The translations under genes were made by a program, and so were the position numbers. The notes beneath the pieces are model-generated. The model searched no databases and was not told where the DNA came from. It was given only the letters and a program-made list of their open reading frames with translations. A stretch of 64,000 bases of DNA from Nematopogon swammerdamellus (taxonomy: Eukaryota > Arthropoda > Insecta > Lepidoptera > Adelidae): NCBI GenBank assembly GCA_946902875.1, contig OX336343.1:2332754-2396753 (forward strand), read 5' to 3'. Each line of letters begins with the position of its first letter. Position 1 is the stretch's first letter. Below, in pieces: positions 6,549 through 41,474 of this stretch.

Positions 6549-6942
6549 GTCACTAGTGTTACTTCGCGAGCGTCACTGTTGCTAGTGTTACTTCGCGAAC
6601 GTTACAGTTGCTAGTGTTACTTCGCGGGCGTCACAATTTTTAGTGTTACTTCGCGAGCTTCACTGTAAATTGCTAGTGTTACTTCGCGAGCGTCACTGTT
6701 GCTAGTGTTACTTCGCGAGCGTCACTGTTGCTAGTGTTACTTCCCGAACGTCACAGTTGCTGGTGTTACTTCGCGAACGTCACAGTTGCTAGTGTTACTT
6801 CGCGAACGTCACAGTTGCTAGTGTTACTTCGCGAGCGTCACTGTTGCTAGTGTTACTTCGCGAACGTCACAGTTACTAGTGTTACTTCGCGAGCGTCACT
6901 GTTGCTAGTGTTACTTCGCGAACGTCACAGTTGCTGGTGTTA
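6549..6942. repeat. 29-bp minisatellite, array 1 (about 13-14 copies)
   Basis: Tandem units of gttgctagtgttacttcgcg followed by agcgtcact or aacgtcaca, period 29 bp. Two spacer-like variants occur (near 6640 and 6665). The same unit makes the larger array at 17700-19007, in the same orientation. Period 29 rotates the reading frame, so it is not coding. Confidence 0.95.
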
Positions 6943-17699: not shown

Positions 17700-19007
17700 A
17701 TTTTACTCGTGTTACTTCGCGAGCGTCACTGTTGCTAGTGTTACTTCGCGAGCGTCACTGTTGCTAGTGTTACTTCGCGTGCGTCACTGTTGCTAGTGTT
17801 ACTTCGCGAGCATCACTGTTGCTAGTGTTACTTCGCGAGCGTCACTGTTGCTAGTGTGACTTCGCGTGCGTCACTGTTGCTAGTGTACTTCGCGAGCGTC
17901 ACTGTTGCTAGTGTTACTTCGCGAGCGTCACTGTTGCTAGTGTGACTTCGCGAGCGTCACTGTTGCTAGTGTTGCTTCGCGAGCGTCACTGGTGCTAGTG
18001 TTACTTCGCGAGCGTCACTGTTGCTAGTGTTACTTCGCGAGCGTTACTGTTGCTAGTGTTACTTCGCGAGCGTCACTGTTGCTAGTGTTACTTCGCGAGC
18101 GTCACTGTTGCTAGTGTTACTTCGCGTGCGTCACTGTTGCTAGTGTTAATTCGCGAGCGTCACTGTTGCTAGTGTTACTTCGGGTGCGTCACTGTTGCTA
18201 GTGTGACTTCGCGAGCGTCACTGTTGCTAGTGTTGCTTCGTGAGCGTCACTGGTGCTAGTGTTACTTCGCGAGCGTCACTGTTGCTAGTGTTACTTCGCG
18301 AGCGTCACTGTTGCTAGTGTTACTTCGCGAGCATCACTGTTGCTAGTGTTACTTCGCGAGCGTCACTGTTGCTAGTGTGACTTCGCGTGCGTCACTGTTG
18401 CTAGTGTACTTCGCGAGCGTCACTGTTGCTAGTGTGACTTCGCGTGCGTCACTGTTGCTAGTGTTACTTCGCGAGCGTCACTGTTGCTAGTGTGACTTCG
18501 CGAGCGTCACACTAGCAGTTAAATAGTAACAGTGTAACAGTAGTATTAACAGTGTAAGGTTACTGTTACTAGTGATTCTTCGCGAGCGTCACTGTTGCTA
18601 GTGTTACTTCGCGAGCGTCACTGTTGCTAGTGTTACTTCGCGTGCGTCACTGTTGCTAGTGTTACTTCGGGTGCGTCACTGTTGCTAGTGTTACTTCGCG
18701 AGCGTCACTGTTGCTAGTGTTACTTCGCGAGCGTCACTGTTGCTAGTGTTACTTCGCGTGCGTCACTGTTGCTAGTGTTAATTCGCGAGCGTCACTGTTA
18801 ATCGTGTTACTTCCGAGGTTACTTCGCGAGCATCACTGTTACTAGAGTAACTGTGTAAGGTTACTGTTACTAGTGATTCTTCGCGAGCGTCACTGTTAAT
18901 CGTGTTACTTCCGAGGTTACTTCGCGAGCATCACTGTTACTAGAGTAACTGTGTAAGGTTACTGTTACTAGTGATTCTTCGCGAGCGTCACTGTTGCTAG
19001 TGTTACA
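17700..19007. repeat. 29-bp minisatellite, array 2 (about 45 unit lengths)
   Basis: Same unit as array 1: gttgctagtgttacttcgcg plus agcgtcact, with recurring variants (tgcgtcact; gtgacttcg; gttgcttcg). The regular array is broken at about 18517-18575 by diverged text and turns at its right end into a 98-bp higher-order repeat (ctgttaatcgtgttacttcc at about 18794 and 18892). The minus-strand frame at 18870-19055 is only translated repeat and is not a gene. Confidence 0.95.
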
Positions 19008-24177: not shown

Positions 24178-25976
24178 GTTGCCCGCGGCTTCGCTCGCGT
24201 GAAATTCGTATTTCAAAAAAAGAAAGTAAGTAATTAAAGGCGGGCCCGAAGGCGGATCTGCGCTCACGTAAACGATATTCTTTCTCGATGAAAGTAACTA
24301 AGGGCGAGGCGGAAGGCGGAGCTGAGTTCAGCAAGAAGAAAAACATTCTTGAAGAAAGTAAGTAACTAAGGGCGAGGCCGAAGGCCGAGCTCTGTTCTGG
24401 AAGACCATAAACCTTCTCGAAGAAAGTAAGTAACTATGGGCGAGGCCGCAGGCCGAGCTGCGTTCAGGAAGAAGCTAAACCATCTTGAAGAAAGTAAGTA
24501 ACTAAGGCGAGGCCGAAGGCCGAGCTACGTTCGAATAATTGAAAAACCATCTCGAAGAAACAAGTAACTAAGGGCGAGGCCGAGGGCCGAGCTGCGTCCA
24601 GCAAGAAGCTAAAGCATCTTGAAGAAAGTAAGTAACTAAGGCGAGGCCGAAGGCCGAGCTACGTTCTGATAATTGAAAAACCATCTCGAAGAAAGCAAGT
24701 AACTAAGGGCGAGGCCGAAGGCCGAGCTGCGTTCAGGAAGAAGTTAAACGATCTTGAAGAAAGTAAGTAATTAAGGGCGAGGCCGAAGGCCATGCTCTAT
24801 TCGGGAAGAACATAAACCATCTCGAAGAAAGCAAGTAACTAAGGGCGAGGCCGTAGGCCGAGCTGCGTTCAGGAAGAAGGTAAACATTTTTGAAGAAAGT
24901 AAGTAACTAAGGCGAGGCCGAAGGCCGAAGCTACGTTCTAACAAATGATAAACCATCTCGAAGAAAGCAAGTAACTAAGGGCGAGGCCGAAGGCCGAGCT
25001 GCGTTCAGGAAGAAGCTAAACCATCTCGAATAAAGTTAATTAATATTAAGATTGAGTTAATTTAATTTAAATTTTATTATAAAGTCCACGCTTCTGACGG
25101 CAAATATCCTAGAACCTCGCGGTTATTCCCGGCTGGATGGCAAGAGGCCCAATGCTATCACCTTAGTGCCATGGACTAAGGATTGTTCTTGGATGTGGGA
25201 CGCCACTTGTGTTCTCACATTGGCTCCAAGTCACGTTAGGACATCTTCAAAAGCGGCTGGCGCGGCCGAGGCTGGGGCGGAGAGCCTCAAACGCAACAAA
25301 TATAGAAATATAATTCAAGATTTCGAATTTGTTGTGTTTGCGGTTGAAACCCTCAGTCCGAGGAGCAGTGAAGCCAAAAGAGGCTTGGGCCTCTGCTGGT
25401 TGACGCAACTGGTGTCCCGCCATCAAGGGCTGTATGTACTGCATTCAAAGGGTAAGCCTTGCCATCCAGCGGGGTAATGCCGCAAGTGCTCTAAGAACAT
25501 TTGAAAATGCCCGTTTTGATACTTATTTTAATGTTTGTTAGGTAGGTTTTAATTCTTTAGTTATTAATATTACTTTTTTATTTTTATGAAATAAATAGAT
25601 TGAGTAAACGATATTATATTCTATCGAAGAAAGGAAGTCTTTAAGGGCGAGGCCCGAAGGCGGAAGAGGGTTTTTGGTTTACCTGAACGCAGCTCGGCCT
25701 TCGGCCTCGCACTTAGTTCCTTCCTTTCTTCCAGAAGGTTTATCGTCTTCCTGAACGCAGCTCGGCATTCGGCCTCGCCCTTACTTACTTCCTTTATTTG
25801 AGAAAGGTTTATCGTTTACCTGAAAGCAGCTCGGCCTTCGGCCTCGCCCTTAGTTAGTTACTTTCTTTGAGAAGGTTTATCGATTACCTGAACGCAGCTC
25901 GGCCTTCGGCCTCGCCCTTAGTTACTTACATTCTTCTTTGGAATACAAATTTCACGCGAGCGAAGCCGCGGGCAAC
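24178..25976. mobile_element. Foldback-like structure with opposed tandem arrays
   Basis: The outer ends gttgcccgcggcttcgctcg (24178) and its reverse complement (to 25976) are inverted. Inside, 24230-25040 holds about 12 units (period about 60-70 bp) of the type gaagaaagtaagtaactaag + ggcgaggccgaaggccgagc, and 25680-25930 holds four units of the same sequence in the opposite orientation. The spacer 25060-25640 contains a retroelement coding scrap. No matching target duplication is visible at the ends, so the boundaries are provisional. The right end extends further (cagctagt), as in Rep-E and Rep-H ends. Confidence 0.75.
25090..25545 (+). pseudogene. C-terminal scrap of a retroelement polyprotein inside the foldback
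   Basis: Pieces in different frames read SRLFPAGWQEAQCYHLSAMD, NIIQDFEFVVFAVETLSPRS and VSLAIQRGNAASALRTFENA. The combination of a VETL block followed by a closing AIQRGNAAS block is one I know from invertebrate retroelement-derived proteins; the clade is uncertain. At least two frame changes separate the blocks. It lies exactly between the opposed arrays, so it may be captured sequence or the remnant core of the element. Confidence 0.65.
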
Positions 25977-26352
25977 AGCTAGTGAAAAATAAAAACACAT
26001 CACGTGTTAAAATAAAACATAAAACGTAGTGGTACAGGTGAAGGCTTCGAAGGAGATTAGAAGGCAGTGCGGCGGCAACAAAGGTGCGGCCTGCATCAGA
26101 TAGAGAGGTCTAAATGTCAGCCTGCAGCCGGACCCCACTTCGCCGTACAGCCTTCTTGCCTCATGCCCGGAAAACCGATATACTCATACACGAACACATT
26201 TGGCGATGCAAGTACCGCGATAGGCGTTTCGCTGGCGCGAAAATCTGGTATTGCAACAATGCTTGTTGGAGAATACACTGATGTTGTTTTGACTGAACTG
26301 AGCTACTTAGGCTTTTGTGCTAACTTTTTGTGTAAATATTACATACATAGCG

Positions 26353-37924: not shown

Positions 37925-38416
37925 TTTGTACCGTGTGGGGTCGGTACTTAAAAAGAATAGCCCCACTGCATCTCTCCCCGTCGCATGTCGTAAAAGTCGA
38001 CTAAGGGATAAGAAAATTCGTCAGCCTCGGTAGCTCAGTGGCGCGGTTGGTTAGTCAACTGTTATTAAGCAACGCTGAGCGCGGTCAGTGATTTGATGGG
38101 TGACCGCTCGACCGTTGGAGGCTGACCGTGGTTCGGATTCCACGTTAAACTGTAGGTCCCTTCCCTTCTTACTTTACTAGGTGGTAGGGTTTATCCCGGC
38201 CGGGTTGATACCACCGCACTGAACGAAACGTCGGTCGAAACGGCTATGTAAATAGTTCGTGTTTTCCGTCCAGTTTAGTGTAGCCGACATGAAATGAAGG
38301 GAAGCACTGACATGGCACCTAGTTCACCCTGTGTTATGGGCTGACATCACGGATGTTGTAGGTGATGTAGCCAACCGTGTCAGGTTCCATAAAAAAAAAA
38401 AAAAAAAAAAAAAAAA
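37925..38416 (+). repeat. SINE-A full-length copy 2
   Basis: Same structure and almost the same text as 34303-34797, 3.6 kb away; poly(A) of about 28. The flanks are unrelated apart from a shared few bases (tttgtaccg), which argues for two insertions of a young subfamily rather than a segmental duplication. Confidence 0.9.
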
Positions 38417-39004
38417 TAGTTTGAACACTAAACATTAGGCTGCTGAGTAGATCCTAATGTGATACTTGAGCCTGATGACCTTTACACAGATCTTCTATAC
38501 GTGGACGAATTTTGGATAAACAGACTCACTGTCCACATTGAGCAGTCTTGATCTGTTTTTGTTGAATTTGATGTTTTTCAGTGCGGAAGGGCAACATTTT
38601 TTAATTTTTAGAAATTCTCGCGATACACCTAACACATGCTCACTGCGACACCTGACACACTGGTTGAGAATGGCTGTTCTATACAATATTGGAGGAGAAT
38701 TTGGTATTCAATAGAAAACATTGCCATCTAGCGGCAAACTAATGCAACGCTTTGTGAAGTAGTATCACAGTATATATATGGCTAAAGCAGTATGGAAACT
38801 ACGTACAAAACGATCGAAACGACGCACTCACACACACGCACGCCTCAATAAGGCCCCGAAGCGAATGTCGCAAACAATCAGTCGCGGGTGCCGGCCGCGT
38901 CCGAGTGGTCGTGTTTGTTTTTGTTGCATGCGCCACGGACAGTCCGCGATCTTTTAGAATGCAAAAAAATGGTTACAAACGTTTTTCGACTGTTGTCACT
39001 TTAT

Positions 39005-40305
39005 ATTAACTTTTGACAAATGTTGACAACTTTTGTCAACTTTTCTCATCTTTTGCCAACTTCTGTCACATTTTGTCAACTTTTATCGACTGTTGTCAAC
39101 TCTTGTCAACTTTTCTTATCTTTTGCCAACTTCTGTCACCTTTTGTCAACTTTTATCGACTGTTGTCAACTCTTGTCAAGTTTTGTAAACTTTTGAGAAC
39201 TTTTGTCAACTCTCGGTAACTTATGTCAACTCTTGTCAACTTTTGTCAACTTTTCTCATCTCTTGCCAACTTCTGTCACCTTTTGTCAACTTTTATCGAC
39301 TGTTGTCAACTCTTGTCAAGTTTTGTAAACTTTTGAGAACTTTTGCCAATTCTCGGTAACTTATGTCAACTCTTGTCAACTTTTGTCAACTTTTCTTATC
39401 TTTTGCCAACTTCTGTCATCTTTTGTCAACTTTTATCGACTGTTGTCAACTCTTGTCAAGTTTGTAAACTTTTGAGAACTTTTGTCAACTGTCGGTAACT
39501 TATGTCAACTTTTGTCAACTTTTCTCCTCTTTTGCCAACTTCTGTCACCTTTTTTCAACTTTTATCGACTGTTGTCAAGTTTTGTAAACTTTTGAGAACT
39601 TTTGCCAACTCTCGGTAACTTATGTCAACTCTTGTCAACTTTTGTCAACTTTTCTTATCTTTGCCCACTTCTGTCACCTTTTGTCAACCTTTATCGACTG
39701 TTGTCAACTCTTGTCAATGTTTGTCAACCTTGGTCAACTTTTGTCAACTTTCGTCAATATTTGTCAACTTTTGTCATCTTTTGTCAACTTTTATCGACTG
39801 TTGTCAACTCTTGTCAATGTTTGTCAACCTTGGTCAACTTTTGTCAACTTTCGTCAACATTTGTCAACTTTTGTCATCTTTTGTCAACTTTTATCTACTG
39901 TTGTCAACTCTTGTCAATGTTTGTTAACCTTTGTCGGCTTTTGTCTACTTTTGTCATCTTTTGTCAACTTTTATCGACCTGTGTCAACTTTTATCGACTG
40001 TTGTCAACTCGTGTCAATGTCAACGTAACCTTGGTCAACTTTTGTCAACTTTCGTCAATATTTGTCATCTTTGTCAACTTTTATCGACTGTTGTCAACTG
40101 TTGTGGTTGTTTGTCAACCTTAGTCAACTTTCGTCAACATTTTGTCATCTTTTGTCAACTTTTGTATACTTTTCTCGACTTTTGTGAACTTATAGCCACT
40201 TTCGTCATCTTTTGTCAACTTTTACAAACTTCTCTCAGCTTTTATCATATTTTAACCACTGTTGTCAACTTTTGTCACTATTATGAACTTTTGTCAGCTT
40301 TCGTT
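39005..40305. repeat. 10-bp periodic array (GTCAACTTTT), left arm
   Basis: Basic unit gtcaactttt with variants (gtcatctttt, atcgactgtt, gtcaactctt). Higher-order units are marked by ttttatcgac: spacing is 70 then about 140 bp at 39081-39561, and 100 bp at 39681, 39781 and 39881. The protein-like frames (CQLLSTFVNF type) are only the translated repeat. Confidence 0.95.
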
Positions 40306-40309
40306 AACA

Positions 40310-41228
40310 AGGAGTTGACAAAAGTTGACAAGAGTTTACATAAGTTGACTAAAGTTGACAAGAGTTAACGAAAGTTGACAAACTGGACAAAAGATGGGAA
40401 AAGTTGACGAAAGTTGACAAACGTTTACAAAATATGAAAAAAGTTGACAATACTTAGTTGAGATTATTTAACAATAGTTGACGAAAGTTGACAAACGTTG
40501 ACAAGAGTTGACAAAAGTTCACGAAAGCTGACAAAAGTTCATAAAAGTGACAGAACTTGGCAAAAGTTGACAATAGTGGTTAAAAGTTGACAGAAGTTAG
40601 TAAAGTTGACAAAAGATGACGAAAGTTGACAAAGGTTGACGGAAGCTGGCCTAGGTTCATAAAAGTGTCAGAAGTTAGCAAAAGTTGACAAACATTTCCG
40701 AAAGTTGACAACAGTCGTTAAAATTTTACAAAAGCTGATAGAAGTTGGCAAAAATTGACAAAAGATGACGAAAGTGGCTATAAGTTAACAAAAGTCGACA
40801 AAAGCCATAAAAGTAGACAAACGTTGACGAAAGTTGACAAAAGTTGACAAAAGTTGACGAAAGTTGACAAAAGTTGACCAAGGTTGACAAAGATTGACAA
40901 GAGTTGACAACAGTCGATAAAAGTTGACAAAAGATGACAAATGTTGACGAAAGTTGACAAAAGTTGACCAATGTTGACAAACATTGACAAGAGTTGACAA
41001 CAGTCGATGAAAGTTGACAAAAGATGACAAATGTTGACGAAAGCTGACAAAAGTTTACCAAGGTTGACAAACATTGACAAGACTTGACAACAATCGATAA
41101 AAGTTGACAAAAGATGACTGAAATTGGCGAAAGATGAGAAAAGTTGACAAACATTTACAATGGTTGACAAGAGCTGACAAAAGTTGCAAACAATTTACAA
41201 AAGTTAATAAAAGTTGACAAAAGTCGAG
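40310..41228. repeat. 10-bp periodic array (AAAAGTTGAC), right arm
   Basis: Reverse-complement orientation of the left array, with the same higher-order blocks (gttgacaacagtcgataaaa at about 40904, 40994 with a variant, and 41084). The turn-over point is around 40306-40312 (ttaacaaggagttgaca). The two arms could pair over most of their length. Confidence 0.95.
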
Positions 41229-41474
41229 TAAAGTTATATCAATTCATATTTATAGCAACCACGTTTTGAACTTATTATTGATGATTGATTATATTGATTA
41301 TTTGATCATTACATTACAGAACCTAAATAAATGTTTTAATGAATAATAATTTTACAATTTTACAAAAAAATTTGATTGACATCCCTAACGCTCCAATGGA
41401 GCGTAGGTACTTATTTTAACAAATAGGCCTAGTTTCCATACTGCTTTAGCCATATATATGCTGTGGTAGTATGC

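Follow-up and report, generated by a model that had tools for sequence, protein, structure and literature searches.

Opposed 10-bp arrays and a transposase-bearing relative in a probable P-superfamily foldback family of the lepidopteran Nematopogon swammerdamellus

P elements are mobilized by a THAP-containing transposase that cuts at the element ends and reinserts the element with a staggered cut. The Drosophila P element has short ends without arrays, and the terminal motif of the superfamily is CANRG, a motif that we did not find in print in the literature searched. Among foldback elements, FB of Drosophila makes a 9-bp target duplication. A P-superfamily foldback is already known as a kind in Galileo. 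In the available portions of the Galileo reports (PMC4168063, PMC3573991, PMC3688188), these elements have a P-type transposase with a THAP domain, a mostly 7-bp duplication and a palindromic target motif, as well as internally repetitive long arms and many gene-less copies, all of which are shared by the family described here. The newest Galileo survey found covers Drosophilidae in its accessible part (PMC10990002), and a partial literature search yielded no P-superfamily foldback besides Galileo of Drosophilidae. Most foldbacks are assigned to Mutator, including Tetris and Tm1 with duplications of 8–10 bp, and coding copies of Tetris were not found, according to the accessible parts of PMC4079207 and PMC3169594; as far as its available text goes, the former cites one further non-Mutator exception (Badal et al. 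2013).

The locus examined here resembles these systems in different respects. Like FB, Tetris and Tm1 (accessible parts of PMC4079207 and PMC3169594), it has opposed arms of short tandem repeats, while with the Drosophila P element its transposase-bearing relative shares the set of domains and, in alignment, the D, D, E residues; the P element duplication is 8 bp in the available part of PMC4168063 compared with 7 bp here. The differences from Galileo are structural. In the same portions of the three Galileo reports the tandem units are ~140 and 210 bp, whereas here close ends of 36 bp are followed inward by opposed 10-bp arrays, and an array also lies in intron 1 of the transposase gene. Galileo has long terminal inverted repeats that contain tandem repeats; here the ends match at 35 of 36 positions and the array arms are 71–82% complementary. 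The target is also looser than that of Galileo. A family of this kind, with 10-bp opposed arrays, one intronic arm and a loose target, was not found described in a partial literature search that included the accessible text of PMC3688188, PMC4168063, PMC3573991, PMC4079207, PMC3169594 and PMC10990002.

The window, the whole 64,000-nucleotide stretch of DNA that was analysed, contains an element of 2,700 bp (38766–41465) that carries no enzyme gene and is made up largely of two 10-bp arrays facing each other. Its 36-bp terminal inverted repeats, CACAGT...AACTA at 38766..38801 (+ strand) and its partner at 41430..41465 (− strand), pair at 34 of 35 bases between 38766–38800 and 41431–41465, one base less than the full repeat length. 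Exact copies of GTAGTAT directly adjoin the two ends on the outside, at 38759..38765 and 41466..41472. The left subterminal segment (38802..38958, + strand) is common, in interrupted pieces, to the transposase-bearing copy, where it constitutes the leader before exon 1, and is followed by ATGC at 38959..38962 (+ strand), likely a relic of the transposase start codon judging from the alignment with the coding copy. The similarity to exon 1 of that copy ends here, and the array starts shortly beyond. The left array (38978..40301, + strand, period 10) has 132.6 copies of the unit AACTTTTGTC; the opposed right array (40313..41235, − strand, period 10) has 92.4 copies, and the right subterminal segment (41236..41429, − strand) recurs in all 19 of the other copies examined, although that of L019 is strongly diverged. 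Array analysis places the turning point at 40302..40312. The initial annotation had described the ends, the exact duplication and the opposed arrays as they are, with the reversal put near 40308. Together, the arrays (~225 units) make up 2,247 of the 2,700 bp, and the six reading frames of at least 100 residues are, as judged by eye, array translations. Inverted arms of 319–570 nt were 71–82% complementary among the 25 longest pairs listed, and 1.4 kb of the element folded as RNA at −564 kcal/mol, a value without a shuffle control at that length.

Other repetitive units occur elsewhere in the window. A foldback-like unit at 24178–25980 has inverted ends TTGCCCGCGGCTTCGCTCGCGTGAAATT and opposed 68-bp arrays (24220–25036 and 25665–25935); a simple scan gave no target duplication for it. 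Two arrays of one 29-bp unit, GTGTTACTTCGCGAGCGTCACTGTTGCTA, lie 11 kb apart at 6553–6942 and 17709–19006, and no ends were found for them in a simple scan.

The 2.7-kb element belongs to a large family. Its 34-base end has 291 exact matches on each strand of the genome, 582 in total, compared with 0 for the reversed control, which argues against chance matching and bears out the expectation of further copies with the same ends; pairing of all ends would correspond to about 290 copies. The left 135 bp, used as query, yielded 681 first-look candidates, and all 40 that were scored match at 97–100%. Twenty of these 40 places supplied the other copies examined with flanks, of which 19 have both ends and 18 of those 19 an exact 7-bp duplication; one end of L010 is damaged, and only the left end of L015 is present, with no array, no second end within 29.6 kb and no transposase frame visible by eye in the 14 kb downstream. 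A flank-printing pattern search returned 28 end pairs among 100 of the 406 places listed, 27 of them with an exact 7-bp duplication. When the 6 elements common to both sets are counted once and the window element is added, the exact 7-bp duplication is found in 40 copies out of 42 for which both ends could be read. Both opposed arrays occur in 19 of the 20 copies drawn, the window's included, the exception being L014 (775 bp), which has the left array only. Pairwise identity of the end segments of 20 copies is high (medians 98.5% left and 98.6% right, means 98.0% and 97.1%), and the median of 98.5% points to recent spread of the family. A search for ends in which ACTA is followed by A or T, which might indicate different interiors, gave 10, all with A; one of them, C7:1912193, is the right end of L016. 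A further pair of family ends lies 12.2 kb apart at C4:14563494–14575679.

Target preference was read from 71 sites (27 paired and 44 single ends, one mismatched pair left out), with a search pattern that constrained only the first printed base, outside the seven positions. The consensus is the palindrome nYWnWRn: a pyrimidine (C or T) occupies position 2 at 67 of 71 sites and a purine (A or G) position 6 at 69 of 71, with A or T favoured at positions 3 and 5. GTANTAC occurs at 3 of the 71 sites, and the window's GTAGTAT differs from it by one letter. Of the GTAnTAC-like 7-bp duplications of Galileo-type elements cited initially, the length held here and the consensus did not. Empty sites could be read for several insertions. 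The joined flanks of a 21.4-kb copy on contig C6 align across the junction to 38389..38561 of the window (+ strand, 81% over 187 columns), an unoccupied relative of that insertion site with a single CCTTTAC that lies outside the window element. Among the examined loci, 4 of 19 insertions (the window's and 18 others) likewise have a repeat relative that spans the junction without an insertion. That of L021 has a single exact GCAGAGG, and those of L009, L019 and L024 have one target each with substitutions or small gaps. The suggested comparison with empty sites was in this way successful for the C6 copy and four others but not for the window's own insertion, across whose junction no relative was found among the loci compared.

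The C6 copy (C6:22512235–22533634) carries the family ends and CCTTTAC on both sides, and the P-type transposase match between these ends was found independently of the end-pair search. Read in the pieces L037, L034, L038 and L039, it has 10-bp arrays on both sides. Its left end and leader match the short copies at 97.6% (L024) and 96.1% (window) over the first 127 bp, after which insertions interrupt a similarity that reaches as far as ...CTTTTAGAATGC. Predicted exon 1 (L037:420–517) begins at the ATG of the leader, directly after the shared left end, and encodes the start of a THAP domain. Predicted exon 2 starts at L034:1911, in phase with exon 1; alone it covers only THAP profile positions 29–87, and the predicted splice of the two exons gives a whole THAP domain (1–87 of 87, E = 1.1e-15), in line with the suggested check for a relative with a THAP-domain P-type transposase. 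Exon 2 also matches the profiles RNaseH_N (2.1e-26), GBD (2.5e-22), RNaseH_C (5.5e-8) and P-type HTH (1e-5), its nearest solved structure is the P element transposase 6p5a (E = 1.7e-30), and D290, D379 and E608 of P0002, presumably the catalytic triad, align with the D, D, E of the P element. Structure prediction without relatives was unusable (mean pLDDT 33.7).

The arrays of the C6 copy connect this gene to the short elements. Intron 1 contains 10-bp arrays (L034:864–1775) of the same unit as the window's left array, oriented mainly as in the left arm apart from two short reversed segments, and the start of the short copies' left array resembles, by eye, the sequence at about L034:1128. Before the right end, 205 bp in the left-arm direction (L039:6115–6319) are followed by 422 bp of opposed array (L039:6322–6743). 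The right subterminal segment recurs, inverted, at the start of the intron arm, which suggests that one of the two arms is a duplication of the other. The right arm is 85–86% identical to those of the two short copies compared, which together with the 96.1–97.6% identity of the left end over 127 bp indicates a cousin and not a direct parent. The frame stops ~60–80 residues short of four other P-type proteins of the genome, so the transposase may be inactive. The C6 copy shows the type of element to which the family belongs; it need not be the copy that moved the short ones.

Near-identical coding copies number one only among the best 57 of 250 candidates scored. Broken relatives of the C6 gene lie at C23:7600160–7602484 (most pieces 64–82%), C3:6142194–6144440 (50–63%) and C30:9285349–9286084 (70–87%); in the last, the match passes directly from residue 115 to residue 626, as would be expected of an internal deletion. 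The remaining P-type matches listed are 26–43% identical to the C6 protein, except for one 55% piece (C23:19490011). P-type transposase genes are numerous genome-wide, with 71 matches from 85 candidates, including sets of 2–4 copies that score equally and keep open frames of 784, 821, 829 or 831 codons. Contig C23 holds 25 of the 71 matches, as well as 15 of the 21 that contain stop codons, and is perhaps a sex chromosome or heterochromatin. Other P-type genes were rejected as partners of the family: L031 has its own ends, beginning CAAAG where the family ends begin CACAG, and its own 8-bp duplication (GAAAGAAC), and L033, L035 and L036 have no similar ends in the 6.0–6.8 kb around them. The L033 gene (L033:2121–4574, contig C22) is an 818-codon frame with K at the aligned third acidic position, possibly an inactive or domesticated copy.

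Taken together, these observations are best explained by a non-autonomous cut-and-paste transposon family of the P superfamily, deletion-derived from a coding ancestor and moved in trans by a P-type transposase, a reading to which we assign a probability of about 0.88. The short copies and the C6 copy share their left leader, their 36-bp ends with the 7-bp duplication, and the 10-bp arrays, and the P-superfamily features comprise THAP, HTH and RNase H with a GTP-binding insertion in the 21.4-kb copy along with the 7-bp duplication. The assignment of the window element to non-autonomous foldback-type members of this superfamily, first proposed from its letters, gains support because the first exon of the coding copy adjoins the shared left end. 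The window element, in which the leader and start codon are retained and lead into the array, thus probably arose by deletion. Counting against this explanation are the finding of a single near-identical coding copy among the candidates scored, its cousin-like distance from the short elements, the early end of its frame and the ~15 kb between the C6 gene and the right array, for which the model gives no account.

It could be argued that the P-type gene in the C6 copy is a passenger brought in by an unrelated P element, and that the family itself uses a different kind of transposase. The copy is long, parts of it match dispersed repeats, two other long copies do carry nested elements, and the link to the P-type gene rests on one locus, the sole coding copy known. 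Nevertheless, exon 1 continues the shared leader, whose last bases with the start codon survive in the short copies, the THAP domain is whole only when the end-linked exon 1 is spliced, as predicted, to exon 2, and the exact 11-base inverted matches in the 6.5 kb around exon 2 are simple repeats and a lone 11-mer only, all of which make a passenger improbable. Nested insertion did account for the 8.4-kb copy L012, rejected as a coding parent: its extra 5.9 kb (L012:942–6846, contig C11) is an element that is bounded by ends CATTGATTTTATA and flanked by a separate 8-bp duplication, CTTTATAT.

A Mutator-type foldback similar to Drosophila FB, Tetris or Tm1 would agree with long arms built of short tandem repeats and with the assignment of most foldbacks, but we consider it very unlikely given that the duplication is 7 bp in nearly all readable copies, compared with the longer ones of Tetris and Tm1, and that the single coding copy found is P-type. 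Transib elements, which are RAG1-like, duplicate 5 bp of target. They come into question through the first bases of the family ends and the 6.8-kb copy L032, which holds an intact frame of 751 codons matching the Transib transposase 6pqn (E = 2e-167), with a weak RAG1L match (0.019). That Transib, however, occupies L032:2115–6809 (contig C1) with its own ends CACAGTGGGGCGATACCG, which begin with CACAGTG, the heptamer of recombination signals; it has inserted into the left end of the host copy, where it is flanked by a separate 5-bp duplication, CGTCG, while the host bears the 7-bp duplication of the family. The nested duplication refutes Transib as the source, and an origin of the family among these elements can practically be dismissed.

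For the P-superfamily family favoured here, internal deletions in the coding ancestor would have fused the beginning of exon 1 with the intron array and the intron array in turn with the right one, leaving a short element. A P-type transposase supplied in trans would then bind the ends of the short copies and make 7-bp staggered cuts at nYWnWRn sites, with the arrays offering additional docking sites for THAP domains and lengthening or shortening largely by 10-bp steps. The spacing within the arrays can be compared with these steps. In the window element, the distance from one GTCAAC core to the next is a multiple of 10 in 45 of 51 and 33 of 39 cases, and alignment gaps between copies are multiples of 10 for 979 of 2,004 array gaps, compared with 20 of 167 in the ends; 392 of the 2,004 are 1-bp gaps. 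These counts come from 105 pairs among 15 copies, and the same gaps therefore recur. The THAP domain of Galileo binds sites within the Galileo tandem repeats (available part of PMC3688188), and by analogy the arrays may represent extra transposase binding sites in helical phase. No conserved core was found in the array unit, all ten positions having 0.8–1.15 bits, and the ends of copy L024 gave no significant match to the unit (top score reached in 95 and 22 of 300 shuffles), so that a simple binding-site reading is weakened.

A bolder and rather doubtful extension is that the arrays constitute a platform born in the intron, in which helically phased binding arrays flank a coding exon and deletion automatically yields a short two-array element. 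Such derivatives would outcompete their parent and may silence it through the leader and a long hairpin RNA; the census behind this idea is that of all exact ends set against the one near-identical coding copy. More generally, the family would join Galileo as a second P-type foldback family, and it offers hundreds of young copies together with a coding relative and empty sites that can be read. It lets one ask whether repetitive arms persist as transposase-binding platforms, and here one arm is traceable to the intron of a transposase gene. Were the platform extension true, the transposon would be generating, from its own intron, the hyperparasites that exploit it.
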